Assembly: GCA_030625775.1 (NCBI GenBank) | Contig: DAOUQC010000001.1 | Coordinates: 123,788 to 187,787 of the forward strand | Source: Verrucomicrobiota bacterium | Lineage (GTDB): Bacteria > Verrucomicrobiota > Verrucomicrobiia > Verrucomicrobiales > DEV007 | Direction: 5' to 3' | DNA: 64,000 nucleotides | Part shown: in pieces, positions 24,403 to 41,842 of the stretch | How the letters are laid out: every line of letters begins with the position of its first letter | How positions within the stretch are numbered: the stretch's first letter is position 1 | Notes under the pieces: generated by a model | Database searches by the model: none | The model's input: the letters and a program-made list of their open reading frames with translations, nothing else | Told to the model about the DNA's origin: nothing | Program-made: the position numbers and the translations under genes

Positions 24403-25785
24403 ATGTTTGATTTTCTTGCTGAAAGCAAAGCCCCTATTTGTGGGGTCGGACGATCCCGTCGTGAGTTTTTACAAATCGGAGCCTTGGGATCCATTGGTTT
24501 GTCACTGCCCCAATATCTGGCGGCCAAGCAGGCGGGGGGGGTGAATAAGGGCAATGATAACAAGGCCTGCATCCTGATTTTTAATCTAGGTGGGCCGAGT
24601 CAGCTTGATTTGTGGGACATGAAGCCGGATGCACCGAGTGAAATTCGTGGACCTTTCAAACCGATTCGCACCAAGGCCCCGGATATCGATATTTCCGAGA
24701 TCCTGCCTTTGCATGCCAAAGTGGCGGACAAATTTTCCCTGGTGCGTTCCTGTCAGCACAGTGGGGCGGCGGTTCACGATGCAGGTTGGCAGATGATGCA
24801 GACCGGTCGTCGTTTCACAGGGGGAGTGGAGACTCCTCATGCAGGAGCGGTGATGAGTTATTTGCGGGGAAGAAAAACCGATCTGCCTCCTTTTGTGGTG
24901 TTGCCAGAATTGATGGGTCGTGGTGGGGGCAATTTGCCTAATGGCCAGGCGGGAGGATTCCTTGGCAAAGCTCACGACCCTTTTGCCTTGATGGCCGACC
25001 CCTCGAAACCTGATTTCAAGGTGCCTGATCTGTTGCCTCCGGACCAGTTTGGGGCCAGTCGCCTGGAGCGCCGCCGCAGCATGCGGGAGATCGTCGATCA
25101 AACGGTGAAAAATTTCGAAGCCAGTGAAGATGCCCGTTTGCTGGATGAAAATTTCCAGTCAGCTTATCGTATCATGACCAGCGTGGAAGCGCGCAGTGCA
25201 TTTGATCTGTCAAAGGAGCCGGAAAAGGTTCGTGAGCGTTATGGCATGAACCGGGTGGGCCAGTGTTTCCTGCTTGCGCGGCGACTGGTGGAAAGCGGGG
25301 TTCGTTTTGTGACGGTGAATACTTTTTTGACGGTGTTCAATGAATTGTCCTGGGATATTCACGGATCAAAACCCTTTGTATCGGTAGCGCAGATGAAGGA
25401 CATGATTGCGCCGATGTATGACAAGGCTTATTCGGCTTTGATCGAAGATCTCTTCCAGCGCGGTATGCTGGATGATACGATGGTGGCGGGGCTGGCAGAG
25501 TTCGGGCGAACACCAAAGGTCAATCCGGCAGGTGGTCGGGATCATTGGCCACAGTGTTTTACGGTGTCTTTTGCCGGTGGCGGGGTGCAGGGAGGGCAGG
25601 TGGTGGGAGCCAGTGATCCGATGGGCGGTTATCCAGCCGAGAGACCTGTCGATCCCGGTGATATTGTAGCGACTATTTTCCGTGGACTGGGTTTGAATCA
25701 CGAAAGTCATTTGCCTGGCCCTGCAGGTCGCCCTTTCCCTCTGGTGGATTTTGGCAAGGAGCCGATTCGTGAACTGTTTGGGTAA
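24403..25785 (+). CDS. DUF1501 domain-containing protein with Tat-like signal
   Basis: SRREFLQIGALGSIGLSLPQYLAA, CILIFNLGGPSQLDLWDMKPDAPSEIRGPFKPIRTK, TMVAGLAEFGRTPKVNPAGGRDHWPQCFTVSFAGGGVQGGQVVGASD. Confidence 0.95.
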   Translation: MFDFLAESKAPICGVGRSRREFLQIGALGSIGLSLPQYLAAKQAGGVNKGNDNKACILIFNLGGPSQLDLWDMKPDAPSEIRGPFKPIRTKAPDIDISEILPLHAKVADKFSLVRSCQHSGAAVHDAGWQMMQTGRRFTGGVETPHAGAVMSYLRGRKTDLPPFVVLPELMGRGGGNLPNGQAGGFLGKAHDPFALMADPSKPDFKVPDLLPPDQFGASRLERRRSMREIVDQTVKNFEASEDARLLDENFQSAYRIMTSVEARSAFDLSKEPEKVRERYGMNRVGQCFLLARRLVESGVRFVTVNTFLTVFNELSWDIHGSKPFVSVAQMKDMIAPMYDKAYSALIEDLFQRGMLDDTMVAGLAEFGRTPKVNPAGGRDHWPQCFTVSFAGGGVQGGQVVGASDPMGGYPAERPVDPGDIVATIFRGLGLNHESHLPGPAGRPFPLVDFGKEPIRELFG

Positions 25786-25804
25786 CTTGTCCAAAAATTC
25801 CGTT

Positions 25805-28327
25805 ATGAGCTATTATTGCAATCGTATTGAAGGCTTTTTTGGGCTTGTCCTTGTTGCTGCGTTGTTGTGCGGTGTTCCCAATCTTCTATCCGCTGACAAA
25901 AAAAGAGAGGCCACGGCTATCGTTGTTCTGCCGGAGAAAAGTGTTCTGACAGGGAGTGAATCATCCCAGCGGCTTATCGTTTTGGATCGTGATGGCGGGC
26001 AATTGCTGGGCGAGGCAAAGGAGCTTCACTATTCATCCAGCAATGAGCAAGTAGCGGCGGTGCTTGATGGAGTGGTGATGCCAAAAGGCAACGGCAGGAC
26101 TACGATCACGGTAAAGGCTGCTGGGGGACGTTCTGCCAAGACGGAAATTGAAGTGAAGGGAATGGAGCTTGTCAGTGAGTGGAGTTTCCGTCGCCATGTG
26201 ATTCCGGTGATATCAAAAGAAGGATGCAACATGGGAGCCTGTCATGGAGCGATTTCGGGTAAGGGTGGTTTCCGTTTGAGCTTGCGTGGCTACGATCCTG
26301 AGACAGATTTTAATCGAATCACCCGGGAAGCCCGGGGGCGCCGGATTGAATTGAGTGATCCTGGGCGCAGCTTGCTGCTTACCAAGGCAAGCACGGCCTT
26401 GAAGCATACCGGTGGACGGTTTATTGATGTGGGATCGCGGGATTACCGGGTTCTCTCCGAATGGATTGCAGCCGGGGCGATGCCGCCACAAGAGATTGAT
26501 GCGCGTCTGGAAAGTCTGGAAATTTTTCCAAAGCTGTCTACGCTGAAAGTGGGTGATTTTCAGAGTATCCTGGTAAGGGCTAATTATACGGATGGGACTC
26601 AGGAGGATGTGACTCGCTGGGCAAAATTCACTTCTTCCAATGAAGCGGTGGTGACCACTGATAAAAACGGGCGCGTCACCATAGTGGGAAATGGTGAGGG
26701 GGCTGTCACTGCCTGGTTCTCAAGTCAGATTGGGCTGGCTCGCTTTTCCTCTCCTTTTCCAAATAAAATTCCGGCGGAGGTGTTCACCCGGGCCGTAAGG
26801 CAGAACTTCATTGATGACCTGGTGCTCGAGCAACTCCAGCGCCTGCACCTGAAGCCTTCACCTCGATCAACTGATGCTGAGTTCATTCGCCGGGTTTATA
26901 TTGATACGGCGGGCATTATTCCTTCACCGGATGAAACGCGAGATTTTCTTGTGGATCGATCACCTGATAAAAGGGGTCGCTTGATTGACCAGTTGCTGGG
27001 GCGTAAGGAAACCGTCGATTACTGGGCTTACCGCTGGTCGGATATGCTGCTGGTCAACGGGCGTCGCTTAAGGCCGGAGTCCGTTAAGGCTTATTATAAG
27101 TGGATACGTGAACGGGTCGCTAACAATACGCCCTGGGACAAAATTGTGCGTGAAGTGATTACGGCCAAGGGGGAAAGTAATGTGAATGGAGCTACCAATT
27201 TTTTCGGAGTCCATCAAGACCCTGAGACGATGGCAGAGAATGTGTCACAAGCCTTTATGAGCCTGTCATTGGCCTGCGCAAAATGCCACGACCACCCGAT
27301 GGACAAGTGGACTAATGATCAGTACTACGCTTTTGCTAATCTCTTTGCCCGGGTGCGAGCCAAAGGGTGGGGCGGAGACGCTCGCAATGGGGATGGCAAG
27401 CGCACGATTTATGTCGAACCCAGAGGTGATTTGATTCAACCGCGAACCGGAAAGCCGCAACCCGCGGCTCCGTTGGATGCAGAGCCTGTATCACAGGGAG
27501 ACCCTGGTGATCGCCGGGTGCATCTTGCCAATTGGCTGACTTCTCCAGACAACAAACATTTCAGCCGGTCGATCACCAACCGCATCTGGGCAAACTACTT
27601 TGGCCGCGGCTTGGTCGATCCGGTTGATGATTTGCGCTCTTCAAATCCTGCCAGCAATGAAGCATTGCTGGAGGCCTTGTCGGATTATCTGGTAGAACAA
27701 AAATTCGATCAAAAAGCTCTGATGCGCCTGATCCTGCAGAGTGAAACTTATCAGCGCAGCAGTGAGGCACTTTATGAGAATCGCGATGAAGATCGTTTTT
27801 TTTCCAGACAATATCCGCGGCGACTGATGGCTGAAGTTTTGCATGACGCCGTAGTGAGTGTCACCGGGGTACCCAGTGACTTTAATGCAGTTGCTTTGAG
27901 GGATGGAAGTACCCAGAAGACCGATTTTTACCCAAAAGGCACACGGGCTCTGGAACTTTATGATTCTGCTGTGGAATCATATTTTTTAAAAACCTTTGGT
28001 CGCAATGAACGTGAGCTAGCTTGCGAATGTGAACGATCCAATCAGCCAAGCCTTATCCAGGTGCTGCATGTGTCGAACGGGAATACCATCAACGACAAGT
28101 TGAGTGATAAAAGCTCTGTGGTGGATCATTTGTTGAAGGAGAATATGAGCGATGCGCAATTGGTGGAAGAGGTCTACTTGCTGTGTTTGTCGAGGATGCC
28201 TGAAAAAGGAGAACTGGAACGTTTTGTGAAAATACTGTCAGCGGTAAAAGCAGATGAGAAGAAGGATGCACTCGAGGATTTGTTCTGGGCAGTCATGACC
28301 AGTCGGGAGTTTTTGTTTCAGCATTAA
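25805..28327 (+). CDS. DUF1549/DUF1553 domain-containing protein with Ig-like (BIG2-type) repeats
   Basis: AKCHDHPMDKWTNDQYYAFANLFARV, LANWLTSPDNKHFSRSITNRIWANYFGRGLVDPVDDLRSSNPASNEALLEALSDYLV, LHVSNGNTINDKLSD. Confidence 0.95.
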   Translation: MSYYCNRIEGFFGLVLVAALLCGVPNLLSADKKREATAIVVLPEKSVLTGSESSQRLIVLDRDGGQLLGEAKELHYSSSNEQVAAVLDGVVMPKGNGRTTITVKAAGGRSAKTEIEVKGMELVSEWSFRRHVIPVISKEGCNMGACHGAISGKGGFRLSLRGYDPETDFNRITREARGRRIELSDPGRSLLLTKASTALKHTGGRFIDVGSRDYRVLSEWIAAGAMPPQEIDARLESLEIFPKLSTLKVGDFQSILVRANYTDGTQEDVTRWAKFTSSNEAVVTTDKNGRVTIVGNGEGAVTAWFSSQIGLARFSSPFPNKIPAEVFTRAVRQNFIDDLVLEQLQRLHLKPSPRSTDAEFIRRVYIDTAGIIPSPDETRDFLVDRSPDKRGRLIDQLLGRKETVDYWAYRWSDMLLVNGRRLRPESVKAYYKWIRERVANNTPWDKIVREVITAKGESNVNGATNFFGVHQDPETMAENVSQAFMSLSLACAKCHDHPMDKWTNDQYYAFANLFARVRAKGWGGDARNGDGKRTIYVEPRGDLIQPRTGKPQPAAPLDAEPVSQGDPGDRRVHLANWLTSPDNKHFSRSITNRIWANYFGRGLVDPVDDLRSSNPASNEALLEALSDYLVEQKFDQKALMRLILQSETYQRSSEALYENRDEDRFFSRQYPRRLMAEVLHDAVVSVTGVPSDFNAVALRDGSTQKTDFYPKGTRALELYDSAVESYFLKTFGRNERELACECERSNQPSLIQVLHVSNGNTINDKLSDKSSVVDHLLKENMSDAQLVEEVYLLCLSRMPEKGELERFVKILSAVKADEKKDALEDLFWAVMTSREFLFQH

Positions 28328-28339
28328 GTGGAGTTTTTT

Positions 28340-31165
28340 ATGATTGATTCATTACCTGATAATCAAATCCGGATCACTACTCTTTCAGTGGCAACGGTGT
28401 TGTCCTTGGGTTTTGTATTCAGTGGTGAAGCTGCTCCTGATTTTCAGAAAGACATTGCCCCTTTGATGCGGCAGTATTGTGCGGGCTGTCACAATGATGA
28501 TGATTTTGAAGGGGATTATTCGATCGAGCGCTACGCAGATCTGGTGGAAGGGGGCTCCAAGGGTTCGCTTTTGAAAGCGGGGGATGCGGAGGGCAGTCGC
28601 TTGATCAAAATGATGACAGGGGGGATGAAATTGCACATGCCTCCACGAGATGACCCCCAGCCGTCTGAAGATGAAAAAGAGATGTTGAAAAACTGGATCA
28701 CGGCGGGAGCGGTTGGCCCCAGGCCTGAACACGATGTGTCCATTCTGTCCACTTTGACGGTTCCCAAAATCGTCGCGGCCAAAGGGGCCAAACCAGTGAC
28801 GGCGATGGAGACCTCGCCTGATGGCAAATTACTGGCAGTGGCCCGTTTTCGGGTAGTTTCCATTTTGGATGTTTCTGACAATAACAAAGTTCTGAAGCGT
28901 CTGCCTAACTTGTCGGGTAAAATCAATGCAGTGCACTTCACTCCGGACGGAAAACGTTTGCTGACGGCTTCAGGGATAGCTGGTTTGAAGGGGATAGCTA
29001 CTTTGTGGAATCTCAAAACGGGCAAGGTGATTGCTGAGTTTGGCGAAGGCTTTCACCGGGATGTTCTCTACGATGCGGAGTTGTCTCCCGACGGAAAAAC
29101 TCTGGCGACGGCGGGTTATGATACCAAAATAGGCTTCTGGGATGTCACGAGTGGGAAACGTCTGAGATCGATTGATATTCACAATGGGGCGATTTACGAT
29201 TTGGCTTTCAGCCCGGATGGTCAGGTGCTTGCCAGCGCCAGTGCGGATCAAACAGTGAAACTTTGGCGGGTGGACAGTGGCCAGCGCCTCGATACGCTCA
29301 ATCAACCCCAGGGGGAGCAGTTTGCGGTGGTTTTTACTCCTGATGGTAAAAATATTCTGGCAGCAGGGGCGGACAATCGCATCCGCTTGTGGCGCTTTAT
29401 TTCCCGCGACAAGCCGAAAATCAATCCACTGTTGCAGGCGCGTTTTGCCCACGAAGGGGATGTGGTGAAGCTGGTGCTGACTGCAGACGGTAAGAGATTG
29501 ATTTCATCGGGGGATGACCGTTCGGTGAAGGTGTGGTCGCTGCCTGATCTTAGCCAATTGAAAGTCTGGGACAAGCAGTCCGATGTGGCTTCAGCACTGG
29601 CACTGAGTGGAGAGGGATTCAGGGCCGCAAGGATGGACGGCAGTGTGGGGAATTATTCGCTGAAGGGTTTGCAGGCAAAGCAGCAAATAGCGATGGAGGT
29701 GGTAAAAAAAACCGAAGTGCAGAGGGCTGCAGGAGCAGAAGATCCAGTAAAAAAAGTTCAGGAAAAGGAGGGTTCTGTTGAATCGGTATTTGTTCCACCG
29801 TTGGAATTGGCTGGAGTAATTGACAAAAATGGAGATGAAGATGAGGTGCGTTTTTCTGCTAAAGAGGGGGAATCGTGGGTGGTCGAGGTGGATGCTGCGC
29901 GGTCAAAGTCACCGCTCGATTCGAGGATTGTGATCCTAGATACCAAAGGGGAACCAGTGGAGAGAGTCCGACTTCAGGCGGTAAGGGATTCGTGGTTTAC
30001 CTTTCGCGGTAAAAATTCGGATACGGCTAATGACTTCCGGGTACACAACTGGCGGGAGATGGAACTGAATGAGTATCTTTATGCCAATGGTGAAGTGGTG
30101 AAATTGTGGCTGTATCCACGTGGCCCGGATTCAGGGTTCAAGGTCTATCCAGGTTTCGGGAAACGACAGGGATACTTTGGAACCACGGCCCTTGCTCACC
30201 CCCTGGGTGAACCTTGTTACATTGTGAAGCCAATTCCTGCTGGGGTTGATCCTGCTCCCAATGGCTTGCCGGTTTACAAAATCTATTATGAGAATGACGA
30301 TGATTCCGAGCGGCGTTTGGGAAAAGATTCACAGCTCGTTTTCACGGTTCCGAAAGATGGGGAGTATCGGGCACGCATCACTGATGTGAGGGGTTTCGGA
30401 GGCAAGGACTATCGTTACACGATGAAGATCAGGTCCTTGAATCCTGACTTTGAAGTGACGATCAGTGAAAAGAAAGAACTGGTGTTCAATCCGGGCAGCG
30501 GACGTGAATTTGAGATCACAGTGCTGAGAAAGGACGGTTTTGAAGGCGAGGTTCGATTGGATATCAGTGATCTTCCCGAGGGTTTCTCGGCCAGTACGCC
30601 GGTGCGTATCCAGGCAGGTCAGGCCAAGGCGGCGGCGGTGATCAATGTAGCAGCGGATACCGGGGCATTTGATAAAGGGAAGTTTACTCTTAAAGCGAGT
30701 GCGCTCATTGCAGGCAAGGAGGTGAATAAAGAGGTTGCTGGTCCTGAAAATATCAAAGTGGTGGCGGCACCCAAGTTACTGCTGAAGATTGCAGCTGATG
30801 GCAAGTCGGGCAGTCCTAAGAGAGAAGAGGGCAAAGCGATGGAGTTGACGATTCATCCGGGAGAGACCATCACGGCTTTGGTCATCGTGGATAGGAAGGA
30901 TTTTAAAGAGCGGATTGATTTTGGGCGGGATGAATCCGGCAGGAATCTGGCTCACGGGCTGATCATTGATAATATCGGGCTGAATGGTTTGATGATCCCC
31001 AAGGGAAAAAAACAGCAACGTTTTTTCATCACTGCGGCGAAATGGGTGCCTGATTCAACCCGGTATTTTTATCTGCGCACCAAAGCGGGCGGTGGACATG
31101 CGACATTGCCGATTATGCTGCATGTGAAAACGAAGGGAAAGAAAGGGACGCTGGCGGAGCGGTGA
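28340..31165 (+). CDS. WD40-repeat protein with N-terminal planctomycete-type cytochrome c domain
   Basis: FQKDIAPLMRQYCAGCHNDDDFEGDY (CxxCH), then WD40 blades such as GAIYDLAFSPDGQVLASASADQTVKLWRVDSGQ. Confidence 0.9.
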   Translation: MIDSLPDNQIRITTLSVATVLSLGFVFSGEAAPDFQKDIAPLMRQYCAGCHNDDDFEGDYSIERYADLVEGGSKGSLLKAGDAEGSRLIKMMTGGMKLHMPPRDDPQPSEDEKEMLKNWITAGAVGPRPEHDVSILSTLTVPKIVAAKGAKPVTAMETSPDGKLLAVARFRVVSILDVSDNNKVLKRLPNLSGKINAVHFTPDGKRLLTASGIAGLKGIATLWNLKTGKVIAEFGEGFHRDVLYDAELSPDGKTLATAGYDTKIGFWDVTSGKRLRSIDIHNGAIYDLAFSPDGQVLASASADQTVKLWRVDSGQRLDTLNQPQGEQFAVVFTPDGKNILAAGADNRIRLWRFISRDKPKINPLLQARFAHEGDVVKLVLTADGKRLISSGDDRSVKVWSLPDLSQLKVWDKQSDVASALALSGEGFRAARMDGSVGNYSLKGLQAKQQIAMEVVKKTEVQRAAGAEDPVKKVQEKEGSVESVFVPPLELAGVIDKNGDEDEVRFSAKEGESWVVEVDAARSKSPLDSRIVILDTKGEPVERVRLQAVRDSWFTFRGKNSDTANDFRVHNWREMELNEYLYANGEVVKLWLYPRGPDSGFKVYPGFGKRQGYFGTTALAHPLGEPCYIVKPIPAGVDPAPNGLPVYKIYYENDDDSERRLGKDSQLVFTVPKDGEYRARITDVRGFGGKDYRYTMKIRSLNPDFEVTISEKKELVFNPGSGREFEITVLRKDGFEGEVRLDISDLPEGFSASTPVRIQAGQAKAAAVINVAADTGAFDKGKFTLKASALIAGKEVNKEVAGPENIKVVAAPKLLLKIAADGKSGSPKREEGKAMELTIHPGETITALVIVDRKDFKERIDFGRDESGRNLAHGLIIDNIGLNGLMIPKGKKQQRFFITAAKWVPDSTRYFYLRTKAGGGHATLPIMLHVKTKGKKGTLAER

Positions 31166-31252: not shown

Positions 31253-31918
31253 TTGGATAGCTATATACTCCGCTTTAATGTGAAGCTGCGGCAAAATAGA
31301 GGATTTACTTTGTTTGAAATGCTGATCGTTTTTTCGATCGTAGGGGTTTTGCTTGCTTTTACGGCACCATCGTTACTGCTCATTGACTCTACAGGAGTGA
31401 ATGCCTCAGGTCGTGAGCTTGGCGATTTTTTAAACTTGTGTCGGAGCGAGGCGATTTCCCAAAGAACAGTAATTCGGCTTGGGGTTGTGGTTGAGTCGAC
31501 CAAGACAGAAGAAAAATTCAGGCGGTATGCAGCATGGAAATGGGATAAAAAATCTCGTAAATTCCAACAGTATTCGGAATGGCGTTCATTGTCGGAAAAT
31601 GTATTTTTTTCGGAGAAACTCCCGCGGAAAGCATGGGTATCTAGTTATGCACAAAAAGAACCTTCTGCCGTTCGAGGTGATTATATCCTTGATGCAAACG
31701 CAAAGGGATTCGAACAACTTTCATCTGAATCCGGTGAGAAAAGGACTTTGCGTTTTTTGGAGTTTTCACCTTCTGGAAGAGCTCAGGTTATGTGGGGAGA
31801 AGAAAGGAATTTAATCGTGTCAATTAGTTCTGGGAATTTTGATATCGACGAAACTTTAAACTGGGTGCAATTCACCGTGGATACGCTGACAGGAAGAACT
31901 CGTGTTTATAGGCCGTGA
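31253..31918 (+). CDS. Prepilin-type pseudopilin, GspH-like (candidate Verru_Chthon cassette protein D)
   Basis: Prepilin peptidase motif NRG|FTLFEMLIVFSIVGVLLAF with Glu+5. Confidence 0.75.
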   Translation: MDSYILRFNVKLRQNRGFTLFEMLIVFSIVGVLLAFTAPSLLLIDSTGVNASGRELGDFLNLCRSEAISQRTVIRLGVVVESTKTEEKFRRYAAWKWDKKSRKFQQYSEWRSLSENVFFSEKLPRKAWVSSYAQKEPSAVRGDYILDANAKGFEQLSSESGEKRTLRFLEFSPSGRAQVMWGEERNLIVSISSGNFDIDETLNWVQFTVDTLTGRTRVYRP

Positions 31919-32451
31919 AGAAATACAAATCATCTCAAGCCCAACCAGGCTTCTCTCTAGTGGAAGTCACCATGGCCATGACTATCGGTGCGGTGGCGAT
32001 GGTTTCTTTGATTAGCATTCTTCCGCAATTCATGAAATACGAGAGGGAAAGTGCTGACCAAACAGCCGTCGGGATGATCATGGAAGATATTCACGATCGA
32101 TTGGAAGGCCAGGAATTCAAAGAGGGGGTTCCTTCAATTAGTCCGATTTTTTACGATCAGCGAGGCCGGTTTTGGGATCCCTCCGAAGCTAAAGATGCTT
32201 CTGATGGAGCTTTACTACTGGATGGAAAATTCTTTCGTGGTGACATCAAGTTGGTGAAACCAGCAAGTTCATTAATAGCACCAAATTCTCCTTTGGTGAT
32301 CAAAATTGATTTTTACTGGCCGCTGGACAAAGAAGGAAACCCTTTAGGTAAAAAAAAGCCAAAAGCCAGCGTGACTTATTACGCTACCACTTTGACAGGA
32401 CCAGATTGGGAAGATATTGATCCAGACTACAGACCGAAAATTGAATACTAA
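31915..32451 (+). CDS. Prepilin-type pseudopilin, GspI-like (candidate Verru_Chthon cassette protein B), GTG start overlapping upstream stop
   Basis: QPG|FSLVEVTMAMTIGAVAMVSLIS; GTGA overlap at 31915-31918. Confidence 0.75.
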   Translation: MKKYKSSQAQPGFSLVEVTMAMTIGAVAMVSLISILPQFMKYERESADQTAVGMIMEDIHDRLEGQEFKEGVPSISPIFYDQRGRFWDPSEAKDASDGALLLDGKFFRGDIKLVKPASSLIAPNSPLVIKIDFYWPLDKEGNPLGKKKPKASVTYYATTLTGPDWEDIDPDYRPKIEY

Positions 32452-33445
32452 CCGGAAAATTTCCTGTATCAATACCGAGGCCTTCAGTGTTATGGAACTG
32501 CTGTTGGCTATGACGGTTTTGACTATACTTCTCCTATTGCTTATGAGTGCCGTGGCGATCATAACCGATGTATGGGTAGAGAGTGAGCGAACGATTCAAT
32601 CCAACCAACGTGCGCGCGCCAGTCTGGAACTTTTTACTCGAGAAATTACTCCGGCAGTGGTGGATACTCGAATGCAGTTCATAGTCGCCCCTGGAAAAAA
32701 CCTGGAAAAGGTGGGTGCGCAAAATATCGCACTGAACTCACCTGCTGTTTTATGGATGGCTCCATTGGGGAAAGGCGGAGAATTGCGCTGCATCGGATAC
32801 TATCTCTATCGCAATGAAAAAAATAATCACTATCGACTGAAACGCATTTACATCCGTAAAGATAATGAGAATGGCTATTTCCCAAAATTGATTGATTTGG
32901 TGAATGCCAGAAATCTAGATATCCGCACTGACCCGGTTAGCTCGGGGTGGTTCATCTACAACTGGGATTCGCAAGCTTTTGACGACACTTCAACATACAA
33001 TCAGAAAGTGATCGTATCTACTGTAGCCGACGGAGTTATCGCGTTCTGGGTGCAATGCTTGGATTTGCTTGGTAATCCTATACCGCTTGTTTCCGAGTCA
33101 CAATATCATCCGCACAGTGACTTGCTGTTTAACTCCGCAGCGTACTTTCATATGGCGACATCCACCCCGTTTGACAATGGTGATTCTTTTGTTTTTCTCG
33201 CAAAAACGCCCTTTGTGATGAAGGCTCACCGATTGCCTGCCGAGATGGAGATCTCCATTATTACCGTCGGCGACGTCGTTTTGAAGCGTGGTTTGTCCAT
33301 GCCTCAGATGGAAAATGTATTGAGAAAAAACGGCAGCTTGGACATAGAGGGTTCAGTGAAGTTACATATAAAAAAATTAGAGGAAAGTGGGATAACGGAG
33401 GTAGAAGTTTATACAACACGCGTAAAGCTAACCAATGGAGCTTAA
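32417..33445 (+). CDS. Prepilin-type pseudopilin, GspJ-like (candidate Verru_Chthon cassette protein C)
   Basis: TEA|FSVMELLLAMTVLTILLLLLMSAVA with Glu+5; 35-nt overlap with the upstream gene if the listed start is used. Confidence 0.75.
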   Translation: MIQTTDRKLNTNRKISCINTEAFSVMELLLAMTVLTILLLLLMSAVAIITDVWVESERTIQSNQRARASLELFTREITPAVVDTRMQFIVAPGKNLEKVGAQNIALNSPAVLWMAPLGKGGELRCIGYYLYRNEKNNHYRLKRIYIRKDNENGYFPKLIDLVNARNLDIRTDPVSSGWFIYNWDSQAFDDTSTYNQKVIVSTVADGVIAFWVQCLDLLGNPIPLVSESQYHPHSDLLFNSAAYFHMATSTPFDNGDSFVFLAKTPFVMKAHRLPAEMEISIITVGDVVLKRGLSMPQMENVLRKNGSLDIEGSVKLHIKKLEESGITEVEVYTTRVKLTNGA

Positions 33446-36400
33446 TTGAAACTTAATCCAGACAGATCAACTTTTAAGTTGAAGGGAGAGCGGGCTATAG
33501 CATTGGTTACAGTGCTTATTATTGTCGCAATGCTTACGATTTTGATGCTCGCGTATATTTCATCGATGATTATCGAAAGTCAGGCGTCAGCTGCTTATGC
33601 GGATACGCAGCGAGCCAAAATGGTAGCACAGGGTGGACTTGCGCATGCGATTACGGTTCTCAGGACAAATATTCCCGAGCCTGCGAAGATCAGTGAAAGT
33701 GCTGAAACCGCTCCGGGCGAAAACTGGGCAATCAATCCTGGCCGACTTACAGTGTTGGATGATCAAGGGGGCGAAAAACACTATCCTCTTCATACGGGTG
33801 GGGCCGAGATTCCACCAAATCAGACCAGTGACCCTGATGTATATTCAGTTGATCTGAATGAACCAGTTCCTGGAAAAACAATACCTTCAATCACCTATGC
33901 ATTTGATTCTTCCGGGGAAGTAGATACGGATCAGGATCCGCCTCTGATGAGGGTGAAATGGATCAACATTCTTCGCGACCCCTCGGAGCCTGCTTCAAAG
34001 GAAAACCCTGTCGTGGCTCGCCACGCTTTTTGGATAGATGACGAGAGTGGGAAGATTAATTTTAACACAGCACTTGGGAAGCCTTCCAGGAATGATGATC
34101 CAGAAGGGTTCCATAAGCAATATGAACTGGGAATGATGCCGCCTCTATTCAGTCAAGGAGGGGGGGATGTAGAATACAATGAAAAGAGCACGAAGCGGCA
34201 ATGGGCACTTGGCAAATTGAGGTCAGTAAACCTGGACGTCCTTTTTGCTAAAAAGGCGGATCTGAATAAGGATCAGTTGGTCGCACACGCTTTTCTTCGT
34301 GGATTTAGTCGTTATCCGGAAGCAATACTGGATTATGTAAAATTGCCTGAAAATAAAAAAATGGACTGGTGGCATCGCAATCGCTACAACCTGACTTTTT
34401 ACAGCAGGTCGCCGGAATTCAACGCGTTTGGTCGACCTCGCTTGATGACAACCAACATCCCGCTTTCTCTGGAGGGAGGACCTAATTACCAGCTTCCCTT
34501 CGTGTATAATGGTCCAAATGCACCGGATACGCTGCACGATTTAAAAGGCGTATTGCACATGGATACGTTATTGGGAAGCCTCGGATTCACACACAGGATT
34601 TATGACAAGGGCGAAGGATGGATTCACGCTGCGAATGTGGTGAATCGTGCACAACTGGAAATGATGATGCGATATTTTCGTCGTCAATTTCCAGGCTACG
34701 AAGATAGTTTACTAGACAAATACGGAGAGGAAGAAGGTGCGCAGATTGCCTTGAACATGATGACCATGGCAAGGATGGCGACCACCACGATGCGGGGAGG
34801 TTTATCGGCCCATTCATACGATCTTGCTCTAAGGAGTACATCGGTAATTTATTCGCCTCACAGCTCAGAACGTCCCGGGCATTACCCAGAACGATATTAC
34901 TGGCGTTTCGAACCAGGTGCAGATGAGCAGTCGGGACGTTTCCTGACAGAAGATGAAGAATCCACCGATGACACGGTGCAGATGCTTCCTCAAACTCCAG
35001 GCCCTCATATTACGGAAATCCGCCTTGTTTTCAGATCATTCCCCGCCAAAGGATTGCCGCCACCGCTGGATAGGGAGGGCGGATATCGGCGCAATGATAT
35101 CAATCGTTACGGGCCAGTTCTTAGGCCTGCCAACAAACGATGGTTAGGCTTCCGTTTTGAGGTGGAATATTACATGCATGGAGTGGGGCCCTTGGTGAGG
35201 CTTGGTCATTTCCCTTTTAGAACCGATTACTTTGAACTGGATCTAGCCGGTGGTGGCGGCGGATTTGTCCAGGAACTTGGACCGGACGAACCTGAGAATG
35301 CAAGAGGGATTCATCGATACGACAAAAACTGGCTTTACGAAAAATGGCGGAGGGATCCAATGCTCACAAAAGATTGGGAGCCGGTTTTGGATTGGAAAGG
35401 GAGGAAAAGGAGCCGGCAGTTTGCTGATCGGCATAGCCTGCGCTCATTGACAGTAGGCGGATCATATGCGGGACCATTCGATGAATCTCTCAAGCCGGAA
35501 CGCCAACGGAACAGGCGAATTGTCAGAGGCCCATGGCGTTTTGTAGGGAGAGAGAAACAGTGGCTCGGTAATCCGGAAGATCCCAAGCCTTCCGCCAATG
35601 ATTTGCCGAGGGAATTTTCCGCTAACTCAACGGTAAGCATAAAAATCCGTTTCCGGGGAGGAATGGGGGTTGGCTCCCGGCCACGACAAATGATCCCCTT
35701 GGGCGAGACCAAAGAAGACACCTTGCAAGGGCAAGCAAGAATTAATCTCCGCTCTAGTGACATGGTCGCCCTTTCCTGGCAGATTGCAGACCCCCGCTTG
35801 AGTGCTCACAAAGAGCAGTGGTGGTACGAATCACCGGGTGATAACTCAGCGGGCACACCAGGAAGAAGAAATATCAACCAAGATTTCGAAGGCCTGTCTG
35901 AACCGGAGGAAGATTCCACCGAAAAAAGCAAGTTCCGCTATATTCAAAGAGCTCACAGGGCGTTTAAACTTGCTGGCTTCAGAGTTGATCGTCCAGATGA
36001 ATACAATTCCCGCAGCAGGGTGTCCTCAAAGGGATTCTGGTCCATGTTGCATACGGGTATTCAAAGTCAGATTCCTTGGCGCACCATTCGGCTAGGCCCT
36101 TCTGAGCCGGACGACCCGGAGGGCCCTCCCGATTGGCTTTTGATGGATTTGCTCGGAGGAACCTACCCTCTTCAGCATGATCAGTGGAAGATTAATTCTA
36201 CCTTGCCAGATGAATTTTCAACGGTGTCTTACATGCAAAGCACCACGGGGGCGATTAATCTGAACAACAAAACCTATCCCAACAACAGCCCGTATTTCCA
36301 GGCCCCTGAGCGGAAAAAACCGTTGGAGGCCGTATTCAAACATCTTCGCAATGACGGTAAAATAGGGCAACTCCTTGACGGTATTCAAACCTATCAAACT

Positions 36401-37051
36401 GACAGCTATTTTAAATACGTTGGTGAGTTGTCCGAGGTAGACGGATACAAACGGACTGATTCAGAAGCAACACAATTTCAAAATGAAGAACTATTAAGAA
36501 ACATGGTAGGATGCCTTACTACCAAATCGAACACTTTTGGAGTGTGGGGAGTCGGGCAAGTGGTGAAAAAACGTCCCGGTAATGAAAAGTGGGAGCAGTT
36601 TGAAGATGGCGACATAGTGCAGGGAGAAAAACGGTTTTTTGCGATTGTTGAACGATACATTTGGCCAGGCAAAGACGGGGTTCCAGGAAATGCGCATGTG
36701 AATTCCTGGGGAGTCTGGGATAGGCATGCGAAAGGGAATAAGTATATTCCACCTAAAGGTAAAGGTGCTCCTACAGATCTGATTCCTACTGACGGGGCAT
36801 TAACTGATCGCTTGTTTCAGTTGCCGGGTTCACCCCCTACCAGGAAAAATGGGGACAGCCAACGACTTGCTCTTGAACTTTCTGGAACTTACCCTGAATT
36901 TGATGGACCACAGGAAGTGGAAATGGGTCGCTATGCTACAAGGGCTTTGGGTAAAGTAAAGTGGTCATCCAGTTCGCTGGAGGACGCCTATAATCCTCCG
37001 CAACCTGTCATTAAATATAAAGTCGTGTATATCCGATATTTAGACGAATGA
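33446..37051 (+). CDS. Giant GspK/PilX-like protein, about 1201 aa (candidate Verru_Chthon cassette protein A), TTG start
   Basis: N-terminus GERAIALVTVLIIVAMLTILMLAYISSMIIESQASAAYADTQRAKMVAQGGLAHAITVLR, a GspK/PilX-like helix lacking Glu+5; TTG start directly follows the upstream stop. Confidence 0.7.
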   Translation: MKLNPDRSTFKLKGERAIALVTVLIIVAMLTILMLAYISSMIIESQASAAYADTQRAKMVAQGGLAHAITVLRTNIPEPAKISESAETAPGENWAINPGRLTVLDDQGGEKHYPLHTGGAEIPPNQTSDPDVYSVDLNEPVPGKTIPSITYAFDSSGEVDTDQDPPLMRVKWINILRDPSEPASKENPVVARHAFWIDDESGKINFNTALGKPSRNDDPEGFHKQYELGMMPPLFSQGGGDVEYNEKSTKRQWALGKLRSVNLDVLFAKKADLNKDQLVAHAFLRGFSRYPEAILDYVKLPENKKMDWWHRNRYNLTFYSRSPEFNAFGRPRLMTTNIPLSLEGGPNYQLPFVYNGPNAPDTLHDLKGVLHMDTLLGSLGFTHRIYDKGEGWIHAANVVNRAQLEMMMRYFRRQFPGYEDSLLDKYGEEEGAQIALNMMTMARMATTTMRGGLSAHSYDLALRSTSVIYSPHSSERPGHYPERYYWRFEPGADEQSGRFLTEDEESTDDTVQMLPQTPGPHITEIRLVFRSFPAKGLPPPLDREGGYRRNDINRYGPVLRPANKRWLGFRFEVEYYMHGVGPLVRLGHFPFRTDYFELDLAGGGGGFVQELGPDEPENARGIHRYDKNWLYEKWRRDPMLTKDWEPVLDWKGRKRSRQFADRHSLRSLTVGGSYAGPFDESLKPERQRNRRIVRGPWRFVGREKQWLGNPEDPKPSANDLPREFSANSTVSIKIRFRGGMGVGSRPRQMIPLGETKEDTLQGQARINLRSSDMVALSWQIADPRLSAHKEQWWYESPGDNSAGTPGRRNINQDFEGLSEPEEDSTEKSKFRYIQRAHRAFKLAGFRVDRPDEYNSRSRVSSKGFWSMLHTGIQSQIPWRTIRLGPSEPDDPEGPPDWLLMDLLGGTYPLQHDQWKINSTLPDEFSTVSYMQSTTGAINLNNKTYPNNSPYFQAPERKKPLEAVFKHLRNDGKIGQLLDGIQTYQTDSYFKYVGELSEVDGYKRTDSEATQFQNEELLRNMVGCLTTKSNTFGVWGVGQVVKKRPGNEKWEQFEDGDIVQGEKRFFAIVERYIWPGKDGVPGNAHVNSWGVWDRHAKGNKYIPPKGKGAPTDLIPTDGALTDRLFQLPGSPPTRKNGDSQRLALELSGTYPEFDGPQEVEMGRYATRALGKVKWSSSSLEDAYNPPQPVIKYKVVYIRYLDE

Positions 37052-37776
37052 GCCCCCCCCCACCTTTTTACAGTTTGAGAACCCGATTAGTTTCGGTTTA
37101 TTTGTGTGTGACTCTGGCATTGTGTGTAATTACGACAGCATACTCCGAGCAACTTAAAAAAGGCATGGTGCCAGTTGCGCCAGAGCTTCTTTTCAAGGCG
37201 CTTCCGAAAAGCGCAGAAGGATGGAAGCTCAAACAATCCAAAGGAAGGAGTGGTATTGGGATATGGTTGGAATCCGAAGTTCTGAGAGAATTTGAACGAG
37301 ACATCCAGCAGAAGAGTAAAAAACAAGAAGAACCAGCATCTACCAAAATCATCATCAAGGACACTGCAAAAGCAAAAGGAGGAGAGCTGGATTTATTCGA
37401 TGGCTTTAAGCCTGAAAAGTTTCCTGAAGAGGGATATGAATACCTTTATCTCGGAGGAGTACCGGCCATTTTGGCTAACCATAAAAATAAGGAGATTGAA
37501 GCGCAATTTTTGATTAAAGATCGATTCATTTTAACTATCATCATGCGCGGCCAGTCATCAAAAAAACTGAAAAACTGGTTCAAGAGAGTGAAGTTTTCCG
37601 TTTTGCTGGCTATTCCAGAAGGCCCAAAGGTTTATCTTCCCAATGAAGTTGCAGTTATAAAAATTGATGAGCTCGATCCGTCAAAATCAAGTAGTTACGG
37701 TTCCAGTGCATCTATAGCTGAGACTCCCGGCGAGGAAGATGATGTTTCGAATGTAGATTCAATCAATAATAAATAA
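37048..37776 (+). CDS. Hypothetical secreted/anchored protein, coupled fifth gene of the pseudopilin cassette
   Basis: ATGA overlap with the upstream stop (37048-37051); N-terminal hydrophobic segment LVSVYLCVTLALCVITTAYSE. Confidence 0.7.
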   Translation: MSPPPPFYSLRTRLVSVYLCVTLALCVITTAYSEQLKKGMVPVAPELLFKALPKSAEGWKLKQSKGRSGIGIWLESEVLREFERDIQQKSKKQEEPASTKIIIKDTAKAKGGELDLFDGFKPEKFPEEGYEYLYLGGVPAILANHKNKEIEAQFLIKDRFILTIIMRGQSSKKLKNWFKRVKFSVLLAIPEGPKVYLPNEVAVIKIDELDPSKSSSYGSSASIAETPGEEDDVSNVDSINNK

Positions 37777-38646: not shown

Positions 38647-40182
38647 TTACTTCAGATTCTGTAACTGACTGATGCCGTATTTACTCAACTGCTGGTTGAT
38701 GGCCAGAGCCATGCGGGCATCGAGGTAAATGACTTTCGGGTGGTCTTCGAATTCGATTTTGTGCAGTCCCTGGGCATTGGGTTTTTTGAAAGCTTCTGCC
38801 AGATCACCGATGGCATTGATTTTCTGGCCGTTGACTTGGGTGATGATGATGGATCCGAAACCTTCGTAGCCGATGGTGGCTGGCGTTTTCACTACCTGGC
38901 TGAGGAAGACGATTTTTTTGCGGCCTTCTTTTTCGTAAGGCTCGGGATTGGCCTGGGCATGCACCAGATTCAGCGGGCCGCGTGTGGGCCATTTGTCTCC
39001 CCAGAACTTGAGGTAGGGCAGGGTCAATTCCTGAAAAATCAAACCTCCCAGAATCATGAAGCGTGGGCCGCGGTCGAACATGTAAGGGTCAACCAGGTAG
39101 TCGCTTGGTTTTTTGCGTAACAAGGCGAATTCAAGATCGATGGCTTTGCCGTCACGGATGATGTGCATTTTCACTTTGTCACCGACATTGGATGAGCCAC
39201 GAACGAGATGACTGAAGTTGATTTTACCGTATTTTTCATCGATATAATTGCCGCGAGAATCGATGTTGTGGCCGTTGATGCTCATGATAATATCCCCTTC
39301 TTTCACACCTCCTTTACCGGCAGAGCTGTCGTCAATGACCCGGCGAACAAAGACGCCGCCTTTTTTATCGCTGATTTGGGTGAACTTGCGCAGCTGTTCA
39401 TCCAGGGTCTGGGCATAACCCAGTCCAAGATTGGGAAAACCTTTGTAGTCACCGTCCTTCAGGTCATCGAGGAAGTGTTTGATGATGGATGAAGGCAGCA
39501 GGTTGCTGGTTTGTTCCTTGGAGCTGTAGCTCAGCAGCAGGCCGGCCAGATTGCCGTCCTTGACTACCGGCAGGGTGAAACTGTTGGCATGATATTGAAG
39601 GGAACCTTTCACCTGGTAAGTCAGTAGCTGGGAGCCGGGGATGAAGTAGTTGCCAACGGCTACGCGCAGCACTTTGACATCGGTCGTGACACTGTTGCCG
39701 TTATCTTCGACCTGCCATATTTCCAGATTATCTCCTGCGACAACTGTGTCATCGAGTTTCAATGGCACCAGTTTGTCGAGAATTTTCGACTTGGCATCGA
39801 TCGGTTCGAGCAGAGCCAGATTGGCCTCGTAATCAAGGCCGACGATTTTGGCCGGGGTTTTTTCCCCAGTCCCAGTCAGCTCGAGTTCGATGTAGGTGGA
39901 GTTCTCAACCAACTCTGCGGTGGTCAGCACGCGTTTGCCGGTGATGAAGGCTCCCAGGCCACGCCGTGGGGTGGGGGCACCTTTTTCCCAGGGGCGAATG
40001 AAATTATAACGTTGCAGGGTGGCGTTGATACGCACCAATGAACTTGATGGAGAGGGAACAATTTCGACTGCAATTTTAGGAGTTTTTTTCGCAGCTTTGT
40101 CATCCTTGGCGTGAAGGATAGGCGAAAAATGGGTAACAAGCAGCAGGCTTGTCAGGAGATAAGTGAGTGAATATTTGTGCAT
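38647..40182 (-). CDS. HtrA-like protein with trypsin-like and PDZ regions, apparently catalytically inactive
   Basis: LTTAELVENSTYIELELTGTGEKTPAKIVGLDYEANLALLEPID aligns with the protease core, but the TNAHV and GNSGGP motifs are absent; PDZ region GGVFVRRVIDDSSAGKGGVKEGDIIMSINGHNID. Start trimmed to MHKYSLTYLL. Confidence 0.75.
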   Translation of the reverse strand: MHKYSLTYLLTSLLLVTHFSPILHAKDDKAAKKTPKIAVEIVPSPSSSLVRINATLQRYNFIRPWEKGAPTPRRGLGAFITGKRVLTTAELVENSTYIELELTGTGEKTPAKIVGLDYEANLALLEPIDAKSKILDKLVPLKLDDTVVAGDNLEIWQVEDNGNSVTTDVKVLRVAVGNYFIPGSQLLTYQVKGSLQYHANSFTLPVVKDGNLAGLLLSYSSKEQTSNLLPSSIIKHFLDDLKDGDYKGFPNLGLGYAQTLDEQLRKFTQISDKKGGVFVRRVIDDSSAGKGGVKEGDIIMSINGHNIDSRGNYIDEKYGKINFSHLVRGSSNVGDKVKMHIIRDGKAIDLEFALLRKKPSDYLVDPYMFDRGPRFMILGGLIFQELTLPYLKFWGDKWPTRGPLNLVHAQANPEPYEKEGRKKIVFLSQVVKTPATIGYEGFGSIIITQVNGQKINAIGDLAEAFKKPNAQGLHKIEFEDHPKVIYLDARMALAINQQLSKYGISQLQNLK

Positions 40183-40234
40183 GACAGGAAAAGAGATGGG
40201 TGAATTCGGGGCTATAAACGGAGTAGTTGGAAGG

Positions 40235-41842
40235 CTATTTTTTTTCAGCTTTTTCACGAGCCTTGGCCAGGGCCTTGCTTTCCAAAATGAGAGGTTTCTC
40301 GATGAAGTGGTCATAGCCCACATTGTATTTGTTCATGATGCGTTTGTGTGCGGCCTGGGCTTTGGCTCGCTCCATCACCAGGGGGCGCCCTTCACCCAGC
40401 AGGCGGATGACGTGGTAGTTTTCCTGCCCTTCTTCATGGGCATCACCGTTTAAAGCGTCGTGCACATCCTGAAGGGTGTGAATTTTTTTACCGTTAACCT
40501 CATCGACGATTTGTTTAGTGTAAGGTTGCAGGTGGGTATTGACTGAATCAGGCAATACCGCTGTCAGGATCACGGGTTCCGGGCGTTCGATGTAAAGTTC
40601 TTCGCGACTGAAGTAGCTGTAAACGTAGCGGGCTTTTAGATTCCCTATGCCAAAAGAACTCATGAGCTCGCGGTCAAGGGGTTGGAACTGCAAACCGGCA
40701 AAGAGCACGAAATTCGGCTTTTTATCATAGTGATTCGCCTGAATGAGGTAGGGGATGAAGCGTTGCAATTCGACTTTGATTTCCTGTTCCTTGTGGTCGC
40801 GAAGAATTTTCAGGGTGACGGTGTCACCGACAAATTTGCGTTCGACGATTTCGTTGAGGTTGATGCGCTCACCGTCGATGGTGACAAAACCATCACTGGC
40901 GATATCGTAACCATCGATCGACAACAGGACATCGCCGGTTTTTAAGACGCCACCCGCTGATCCTGCTTTGTCTGCGATAGTAACCATCACTCCCTTGCCG
41001 TCATTTTTCAAACCAAGGGCAAGGCGTTGGGCCGGGTTCAGTAGATTGATGGTTTGGGTGGCCATGTCGACGTAGTAATCATACACGCCATCATCAACGT
41101 CCTTGAGGAAACGATTGATCACCGGTACAGGAATCATGTAAGCGGTGTTTTGAGCAGTGGATCCGGAATAACCCTGGAAGGCTACACCGACCACTTTGTT
41201 GTCCTGCAACACAGGGCCGCCACTGTTGCCGGGATTGATCGCTGCATCGACCTGGATGGTGAGATGGAAATCCACGCCGGAGTGGGTGTAAGGACGGAAA
41301 TCGATCCGGGAAACCACTCCGCGGGTGACCGAGATGCGTTCTCCCCCGATCGGGTATCCCACCGCAATGACGGTAGTATTCAGTTTTGGAGTACCGCCGA
41401 ATTTAAGCGGCTTCACATTTTCAAAAGGGGTGGGGTCTTCCAATTCGAGCAGAGCGAGGTCACAATCGTGAGCTGCAAAGAGCACCCGGGCTTTGTAGGG
41501 CTCGGGGCGATCCATTTTTTTGATGTAGATCAGCCGTCGGTTGCTGACCACATGGGCATTGGTGAGGAAGCGGTTTTTTCCGATCAAAAAACCTGTGCCG
41601 ACTCCGCTGCCCAGACCACCTATATTCCAGGGGACGCGGTAGTTGCGGTTTTCGACTTCAACCTCGATGCGGACGATGGCATCAAATTCAACCTTGGAAA
41701 CATCGGCTTGAACGGATGGGGGAGGTGGGATGTTGATCTCTTTCTTTTTGTCCTGGGCGCTGAGCGGAGTGATGAGAAAAAAAGCGCAGAAACAGGCGAA
41801 AATCGTGATGATGGAGAATGGGGAACGGGCGAATGTGGTCAT
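40235..41842 (-). CDS. S1C (HtrA/Deg-type) serine protease with PDZ domains
   Basis: FLTNAHVVSNRR (His), HDCDLALLELED (Asp), AAINPGNSGGPVLQD (Ser), PDZ region SAGGVLKTGDVLLSIDGYDIASDG. Confidence 0.92.
   Translation of the reverse strand: MTTFARSPFSIITIFACFCAFFLITPLSAQDKKKEINIPPPPSVQADVSKVEFDAIVRIEVEVENRNYRVPWNIGGLGSGVGTGFLIGKNRFLTNAHVVSNRRLIYIKKMDRPEPYKARVLFAAHDCDLALLELEDPTPFENVKPLKFGGTPKLNTTVIAVGYPIGGERISVTRGVVSRIDFRPYTHSGVDFHLTIQVDAAINPGNSGGPVLQDNKVVGVAFQGYSGSTAQNTAYMIPVPVINRFLKDVDDGVYDYYVDMATQTINLLNPAQRLALGLKNDGKGVMVTIADKAGSAGGVLKTGDVLLSIDGYDIASDGFVTIDGERINLNEIVERKFVGDTVTLKILRDHKEQEIKVELQRFIPYLIQANHYDKKPNFVLFAGLQFQPLDRELMSSFGIGNLKARYVYSYFSREELYIERPEPVILTAVLPDSVNTHLQPYTKQIVDEVNGKKIHTLQDVHDALNGDAHEEGQENYHVIRLLGEGRPLVMERAKAQAAHKRIMNKYNVGYDHFIEKPLILESKALAKAREKAEKK

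Follow-up and report, generated by a model that had tools for sequence, protein, structure and literature searches.

Which machinery does a compact cassette of pseudopilin-like genes serve, and what would it export, when no secretion core is encoded beside it? The question is raised by a locus in a Verrucomicrobiota bacterium, analysed here within a stretch of 64,000 nucleotides (hereafter the window). In other bacteria, GspH-I-J-K have been shown to form a priming and tip complex, and the recognition of substrates by the T2SS is a long-standing question. A sequence-only reading of the window had suggested that the cassette, with its enlarged K subunit, would encode a tip complex dedicated to a surface or secretion role.

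Gene organization of the cassette

The cassette comprises five densely packed genes in the order D-B-C-A-E (Table 1). The overlap amounts to 4 bp between D and B and to 35 bp between B and C (taking the listed TTG start), C and A are separated by 0 bp, and A and E are joined by an ATGA overlap. The sequence-only reading had described three successive ORFs with a prepilin-peptidase motif and Glu+5, a fourth with a hydrophobic N-helix devoid of this residue, and tight packing that includes the coupled fifth gene. The ORF coordinates bore out this arrangement, and the Glu+5 pattern recurred in relatives: the residue was kept in all D, B and C orthologs for which the motif was printed and missing from the A orthologs, which argues that the prepilin motifs of D, B and C are not due to chance. 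The dN/dS values against the same-genus ortholog (D, 0.13; B, 0.26; C, 0.10; A, 0.11) indicated that these four are real genes under purifying selection; the comparison covered D, B, C and A, the contig of the same-genus ortholog stopping inside A, before E. No RNA element was found in the 24-42 kb part of the window. Past the cassette lie two adjacent HtrA-like genes, the product of one (535 aa) keeping TNAHVV and GNSGGP, while the other (558 aa), in which the histidine region reads TTAELV and GNSGGP was not seen, looks like a catalytically dead partner.

Table 1 Features of the cassette (31253-37776) and of its surroundings, in window positions
Feature	Position	Strand	Description
D, GspH-like minor pseudopilin (Verru_Chthon D-like)	31253..31918	+	221 aa, G|FTLFE
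B, GspI-like minor pseudopilin (Verru_Chthon B-like)	31915..32451	+	178 aa, G|FSLVE
C, GspJ-position minor pseudopilin (Verru_Chthon C-like)	32417..33445	+	342 aa, A|FSVME
A, large GspK-like protein and putative tip subunit (Verru_Chthon A-like)	33446..37051	+	1201 aa, Glu+5 missing from the pilin-type helix
E, small exported protein (predicted signal peptide, beta-rich domain)	37048..37776	+	242 aa
DUF1501 gene	24403-25785	+	upstream, head to tail
PSCyt2-PSD1 gene	25751-28327	+	upstream, head to tail
WD40-PSCyt1 gene	28328-31165	+	upstream; ends 87 bp before D
Two adjacent HtrA-like genes	38647-41842	-	535 aa and 558 aa

Family assignment of D, B, C and A

The four adjacent genes D, B, C and A each significantly matched their own Verru_Chthon model, and none reached its curated cut-off. 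D matched TIGR02596 (Verru_Chthon D) with an E-value of 1.1e-5 (25.7 bits, curated cut-off 70) and was fitted slightly better by the GspH model TIGR01708 (E-value 1.1e-6, 28.7 bits, curated cut-off 80); its match to PF07963 (N_methyl) exceeded the cut-off. B matched TIGR02598 (E-value 3.8e-11, 43.4 bits, curated cut-off 51.4), and the GspI model match amounted to 16.8 bits (curated cut-off 44.35). C matched TIGR02599 (E-value 5.7e-8, 32.4 bits, curated cut-off 256.5), and A matched TIGR02600 across five stretches (E-value 3.8e-46, 157.6 bits, curated cut-off 332.3) and, with its N-terminus, the GspK model NF037980 (E-value 8.7e-8, 32.0 bits, curated cut-off 130), both models being matched by all 23 of the 23 aligned A orthologues. 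No cassette protein reached the curated cut-offs for GspH, GspI or GspK, and the cassette follows the T2SS H-I-J-K pattern of Glu+5 (present in H, I and J, missing in K). Searches with TIGR02596, TIGR02598, TIGR02599, TIGR02600 and the Gsp models thus returned matches, and the assignment to the Verru_Chthon cassettes made by the sequence-only reading stood insofar as all four proteins match their own models; it has to be qualified insofar as the scores stay below the cut-offs and the cassette falls into a separate clade (see below). Overall, the cassette is, judging from these matches, an H-I-J-K pseudopilin set of Verru_Chthon type in a divergent five-gene variant. NCBIfam gives the Verru_Chthon families no functional name, and the literature searched yielded no paper on them.

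The enlarged K subunit, taken beforehand for a special trait, did not survive comparison with the family, since the TIGR02600 model is itself 1296 positions long and the canonical A relatives examined have about 1,210-1,800 aa; a large A is the family norm, and giant size was rejected as a novelty of A. The single-chain model of A was poor (pLDDT 60) outside the N-helix and a beta region in its centre; a Foldseek search with this weak model gave uninformative matches. Full-length homology of A with the GspK of this genome was also rejected, as the N-helix alone aligned, with low probability. At G021:C298:22170-30098 (+ strand), two A matches lie in a single 2,964-aa frame, an apparent tandem fusion.

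Distribution of the clade and a second cassette

A scan of 84,980 species genomes detected A of the window type at 24 loci, all in Verrucomicrobiota. In a quick tree of 64 A proteins (LG+G4, midpoint root), the clade of the window and the canonical group were split with an SH-aLRT of 100, so that A of the window does not group with the canonical A proteins. Gene order differs as well, being D-B-C-A in the clade, while the canonical cassettes examined mostly begin A-B and a few read B-C-A-D. The same genome carries a second, canonical cassette that scores over the cut-off and is split between contigs C45 and C46. By sequence comparison, the cassette is a module conserved within Verrucomicrobiota and represents a putative unnamed subfamily with its own fifth gene.

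Core machinery encoded elsewhere in the genome

Whole-genome searches placed no T2SSE or secretin match within the window, and phmmer detected no GspE, GspF, PilT or GspG within the stretches read around the window cassette, the 24 clade loci and 40 canonical regions, 65 cassette loci in all; a secretin-like ORF was near just three closely related cassette loci, ~5-6 kb past E. This agrees with the initial observation that no ATPase, platform protein or major pilin is encoded nearby, and suggests that, as far as the sequence read around them extends, the cassettes are orphan tips. The core machinery, which had accordingly been expected elsewhere, was found on other contigs: one prepilin-peptidase gene (two stretches in a single frame, C130), a T2SS cluster with GspG, a GspK-like protein, GspM and GspD (C26), a GspE/GspF cluster with a GspG-like pilin (C54) and a T4P-like cluster with a PilT-type ATPase and a secretin (C121). 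A genome-wide count of such components gave ten T2SSE-family matches, four of which are strong ATPases of GspE/PilB size, and four secretins plus one weak match.

The reading that we prefer, and to which we would give an even chance, is that the cassette encodes the orphan minor-pseudopilin tip of a type II secretion-like pseudopilus, which would work on a shared core and serve the export or display of certain large secreted proteins. The cell's prepilin peptidase would process D, B and C, and these would join the large GspK-like A, placed at the apex, in a priming and tip complex; its assembly ATPase, platform, major pseudopilin and secretin would be supplied by genes in other parts of the genome. 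The large ectodomain of A would lend the borrowed pseudopilus its own specificity, and A would recognise, then push out or display on the surface, exported proteins often encoded beside the cassette. We infer complex formation from the homology of D, B, C and A to pseudopilin models, core sharing from the orphan status of the cassettes, and cargo specificity from gene neighbourhood in relatives only. In Pseudomonas, neither the pseudopilus tip nor secretion can do without the core formed by XcpV and XcpW (PMC6211770). The weak structure model of A counts against the tip model, as does the presence of a separate GspK in the T2SS cluster.

An alternative explanation is that the cassette serves as the tip of a type IV pilus, in the role of FimU-PilV-PilW-PilX/PilY1, with A uniting minor pilin and adhesin in one protein, which would prime a pilus on the cell surface and attach to surfaces or substrates, and with E as an accessory. 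The T4P-like cluster would suit it, as would weak PilX_N matches in 12 of the 23 A orthologues (the window's own A gave just an E-value of 0.11, below the cut-off, and no PilY1 family match) and the example of Myxococcus, where PilY1 together with minor pilins acts both in priming and as the tip of the pilus (PMC7541494). However, D and A score higher with the GspH and GspK models than with pilus models, and the neighbours of the cassette in relatives are exported giants, not pilus genes, and we regard a pilus tip as unlikely.

The fifth gene

If the cassette is an orphan secretion tip, E would be the first candidate for its cargo. A profile search for E identified it directly 3' of A in 17 of the 22 clade loci in which the contig continues (the window and 16 others), the three remaining clade loci each ending inside A; among 77 close relatives, all 11 of 11 E matches adjoin A of the window type. 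E is thus a genuinely coupled fifth gene of the clade, in agreement with the coupling to A that the sequence-only reading had noted. The five loci lacking E after A comprise four from two Verrucomicrobium genomes and one from Chthoniobacteraceae. With 19-35% identity to the window protein vs 41-77% for A, E diverges faster than A. Assignment of E to a known family failed, the database searches having returned no family or sequence match. Distant E-like proteins occur elsewhere in the phylum (E-values 7.6e-15 to 8.8e-4), in unrelated places and with no cassette alongside, which suggests that E is part of a more general family of exported domains.

The model of E, of fair quality (pLDDT 80), had no Foldseek match at an E-value <=0.001. 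Its most probable, weak matches were the PknH ectodomain (probability 0.90), EagT6 (0.80) and DcrB (0.51), all of which we take to be PsbP/Mog1-like folds, with TM-scores by target of just 0.27-0.39. Resemblance to a sensor (PknH), to DcrB and to an Eag chaperone, weak as it is, together with the lack of linked core genes, would fit an envelope-anchored complex outside any filament, in which the large A, held by pilin-type helices, would act in the periplasm as a sensor or as a scaffold for assembly, with E as its partner there. We consider this very improbable, because three subunits keep the prepilin-peptidase motif with Glu+5, a feature of filament-forming pilins, and the fold matches of E are weak.

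Neighbouring genes and candidate cargo

For a secretion tip working on a borrowed core, the proteins encoded next to the cassettes would be the candidate cargo. Upstream of the window cassette, the genes at 24403..31165 are closely spaced and share its strand, and no terminator-like site was found in the gap before D; they may be co-transcribed with it or encode its cargo; this is possible and weakly supported, as the linkage is absent in the same-genus genome G001. A DUF1501-PSCyt-WD40 block as a conserved part of the cassette was rejected on the same ground. A similar PSCyt2/DUF1501 pair precedes the cassette at L097, and PSCyt/PSD genes showed a mild excess next to canonical cassettes (11 in 508 kb vs 9 in 1,134 kb, p=0.02, with controls from genomes of family f4 only).

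In three clade loci lacking E (L090, L091 and L097), its slot is filled by a giant PATR-repeat protein, encoded ~65-130 bp after A and measuring 2,270 aa (L091), 2,377 aa (L097) and at least 1,428 aa (L090, running off the contig). Both complete giants have a PEP-CTERM-like end, and that of L097 alone passed the Pfam model; PEP-CTERM was originally recognised in Verrucomicrobium spinosum, which has 65 copies of it (PMC1569441). At L063, the slot holds a gene with a sulfatase-like N-terminus. A PATR giant alongside a cassette containing E was sought and did not occur in the regions scanned.

The PATR pattern, first seen in a few loci, was then tested on 40 further canonical regions with a profile seeded by four cassette-linked proteins from outside the test set. 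Beside canonical cassettes of the related family f4, PATR genes were enriched ~8-fold (10 in 340 kb of flank from 27 regions vs 4 in 1,134 kb from 57 control regions in genomes of that family; p=1.7e-4, a value that ignores shared ancestry). Of the ten, nine are direct same-strand neighbours of the f4 cassette or, as at L107, fused with A, and the enrichment spans f4 cassettes of several different gene orders. Other neighbours of canonical cassettes encode Ig-repeat, He_PIG/PKD and GH5-domain proteins. Beside canonical cassettes of the window's own family, PATR genes were found in 0 of 13 cases, so the cargo idea for the window cassette is carried over from relatives and not observed at the cassette itself. 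This result and the lack of a giant beside cassettes containing E count against the preferred reading.

Some of these loci showed further features. At L107 (9961-16347, - strand), a PATR-repeat stretch and a canonical A share one 2,129-aa frame, which looks like a fusion of passenger and tip. A GH5 cellulase-domain protein is encoded directly 3' of the canonical cassette at L108 (10640-12856, + strand), and a 1,778-aa frame with PATR repeats at L105 (3930-9263, - strand) has a C-terminus very similar to the L108 protein and may share its GH5 domain.

It could also be that the cassette provides a general second T2SS tip with no dedication to cargo, E and the other neighbours being linked to it by an accident of synteny. 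Cassettes of the window's own family indeed adjoin unrelated genes, and the genes upstream of the window cassette lack conservation within its genus. Such an accident appears improbable given that the linkage of E holds in 17 of the 22 loci and that PATR enrichment at f4 cassettes persists despite several gene orders. For the preferred tip on a shared core, the cargo candidates in the window would be E and, with less confidence, the PSCyt/WD40 proteins encoded upstream.

Discussion

Extracellular enzymes and surface proteins abound in the phylum Verrucomicrobiota. A wider and somewhat doubtful reading is that these bacteria use interchangeable, cargo-dedicated tips, in which an orphan H-I-J-K-like cassette with a giant K, placed on a shared core, would export or display the adjoining protein. 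Candidates would be PATR/PEP-CTERM, Ig-repeat, GH5-domain and sulfatase-like proteins and, here, E and perhaps the PSCyt proteins. If true, interchangeable tips would be a modular answer to substrate choice by the T2SS and would provide a functional hypothesis for the Verru_Chthon families; if orphan tips match their neighbouring cargo, substrate choice becomes testable cassette by cassette.

Among known systems, E resembles PsbP/Mog1-like exported domains in having a predicted signal peptide and a beta-rich domain, a likeness that is suggestive and does not amount to membership, but differs from them in its low TM-scores and in showing no sequence match. Small minor pilins with one large tip protein are, by analogy, also the makeup of the T4aP minor pilins and PilY1, whereas A has no PilY1 match and weak PilX_N similarity only. 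The cassette shares with T2SS GspH-I-J-K the gene order, Glu+5 in three subunits but not in the K-like one, and matches to the GspH, GspI and GspK models, yet has no linked core genes, and A, at 1201 aa vs 307 positions of the GspK model, shows detectable GspK similarity at its N-terminus only. With Verru_Chthon A-D it has in common four pseudopilin-like genes matching their own models and a large A, and it differs from them in its scores below the cut-offs, its separate clade, its D-B-C-A order and its fifth gene, E.
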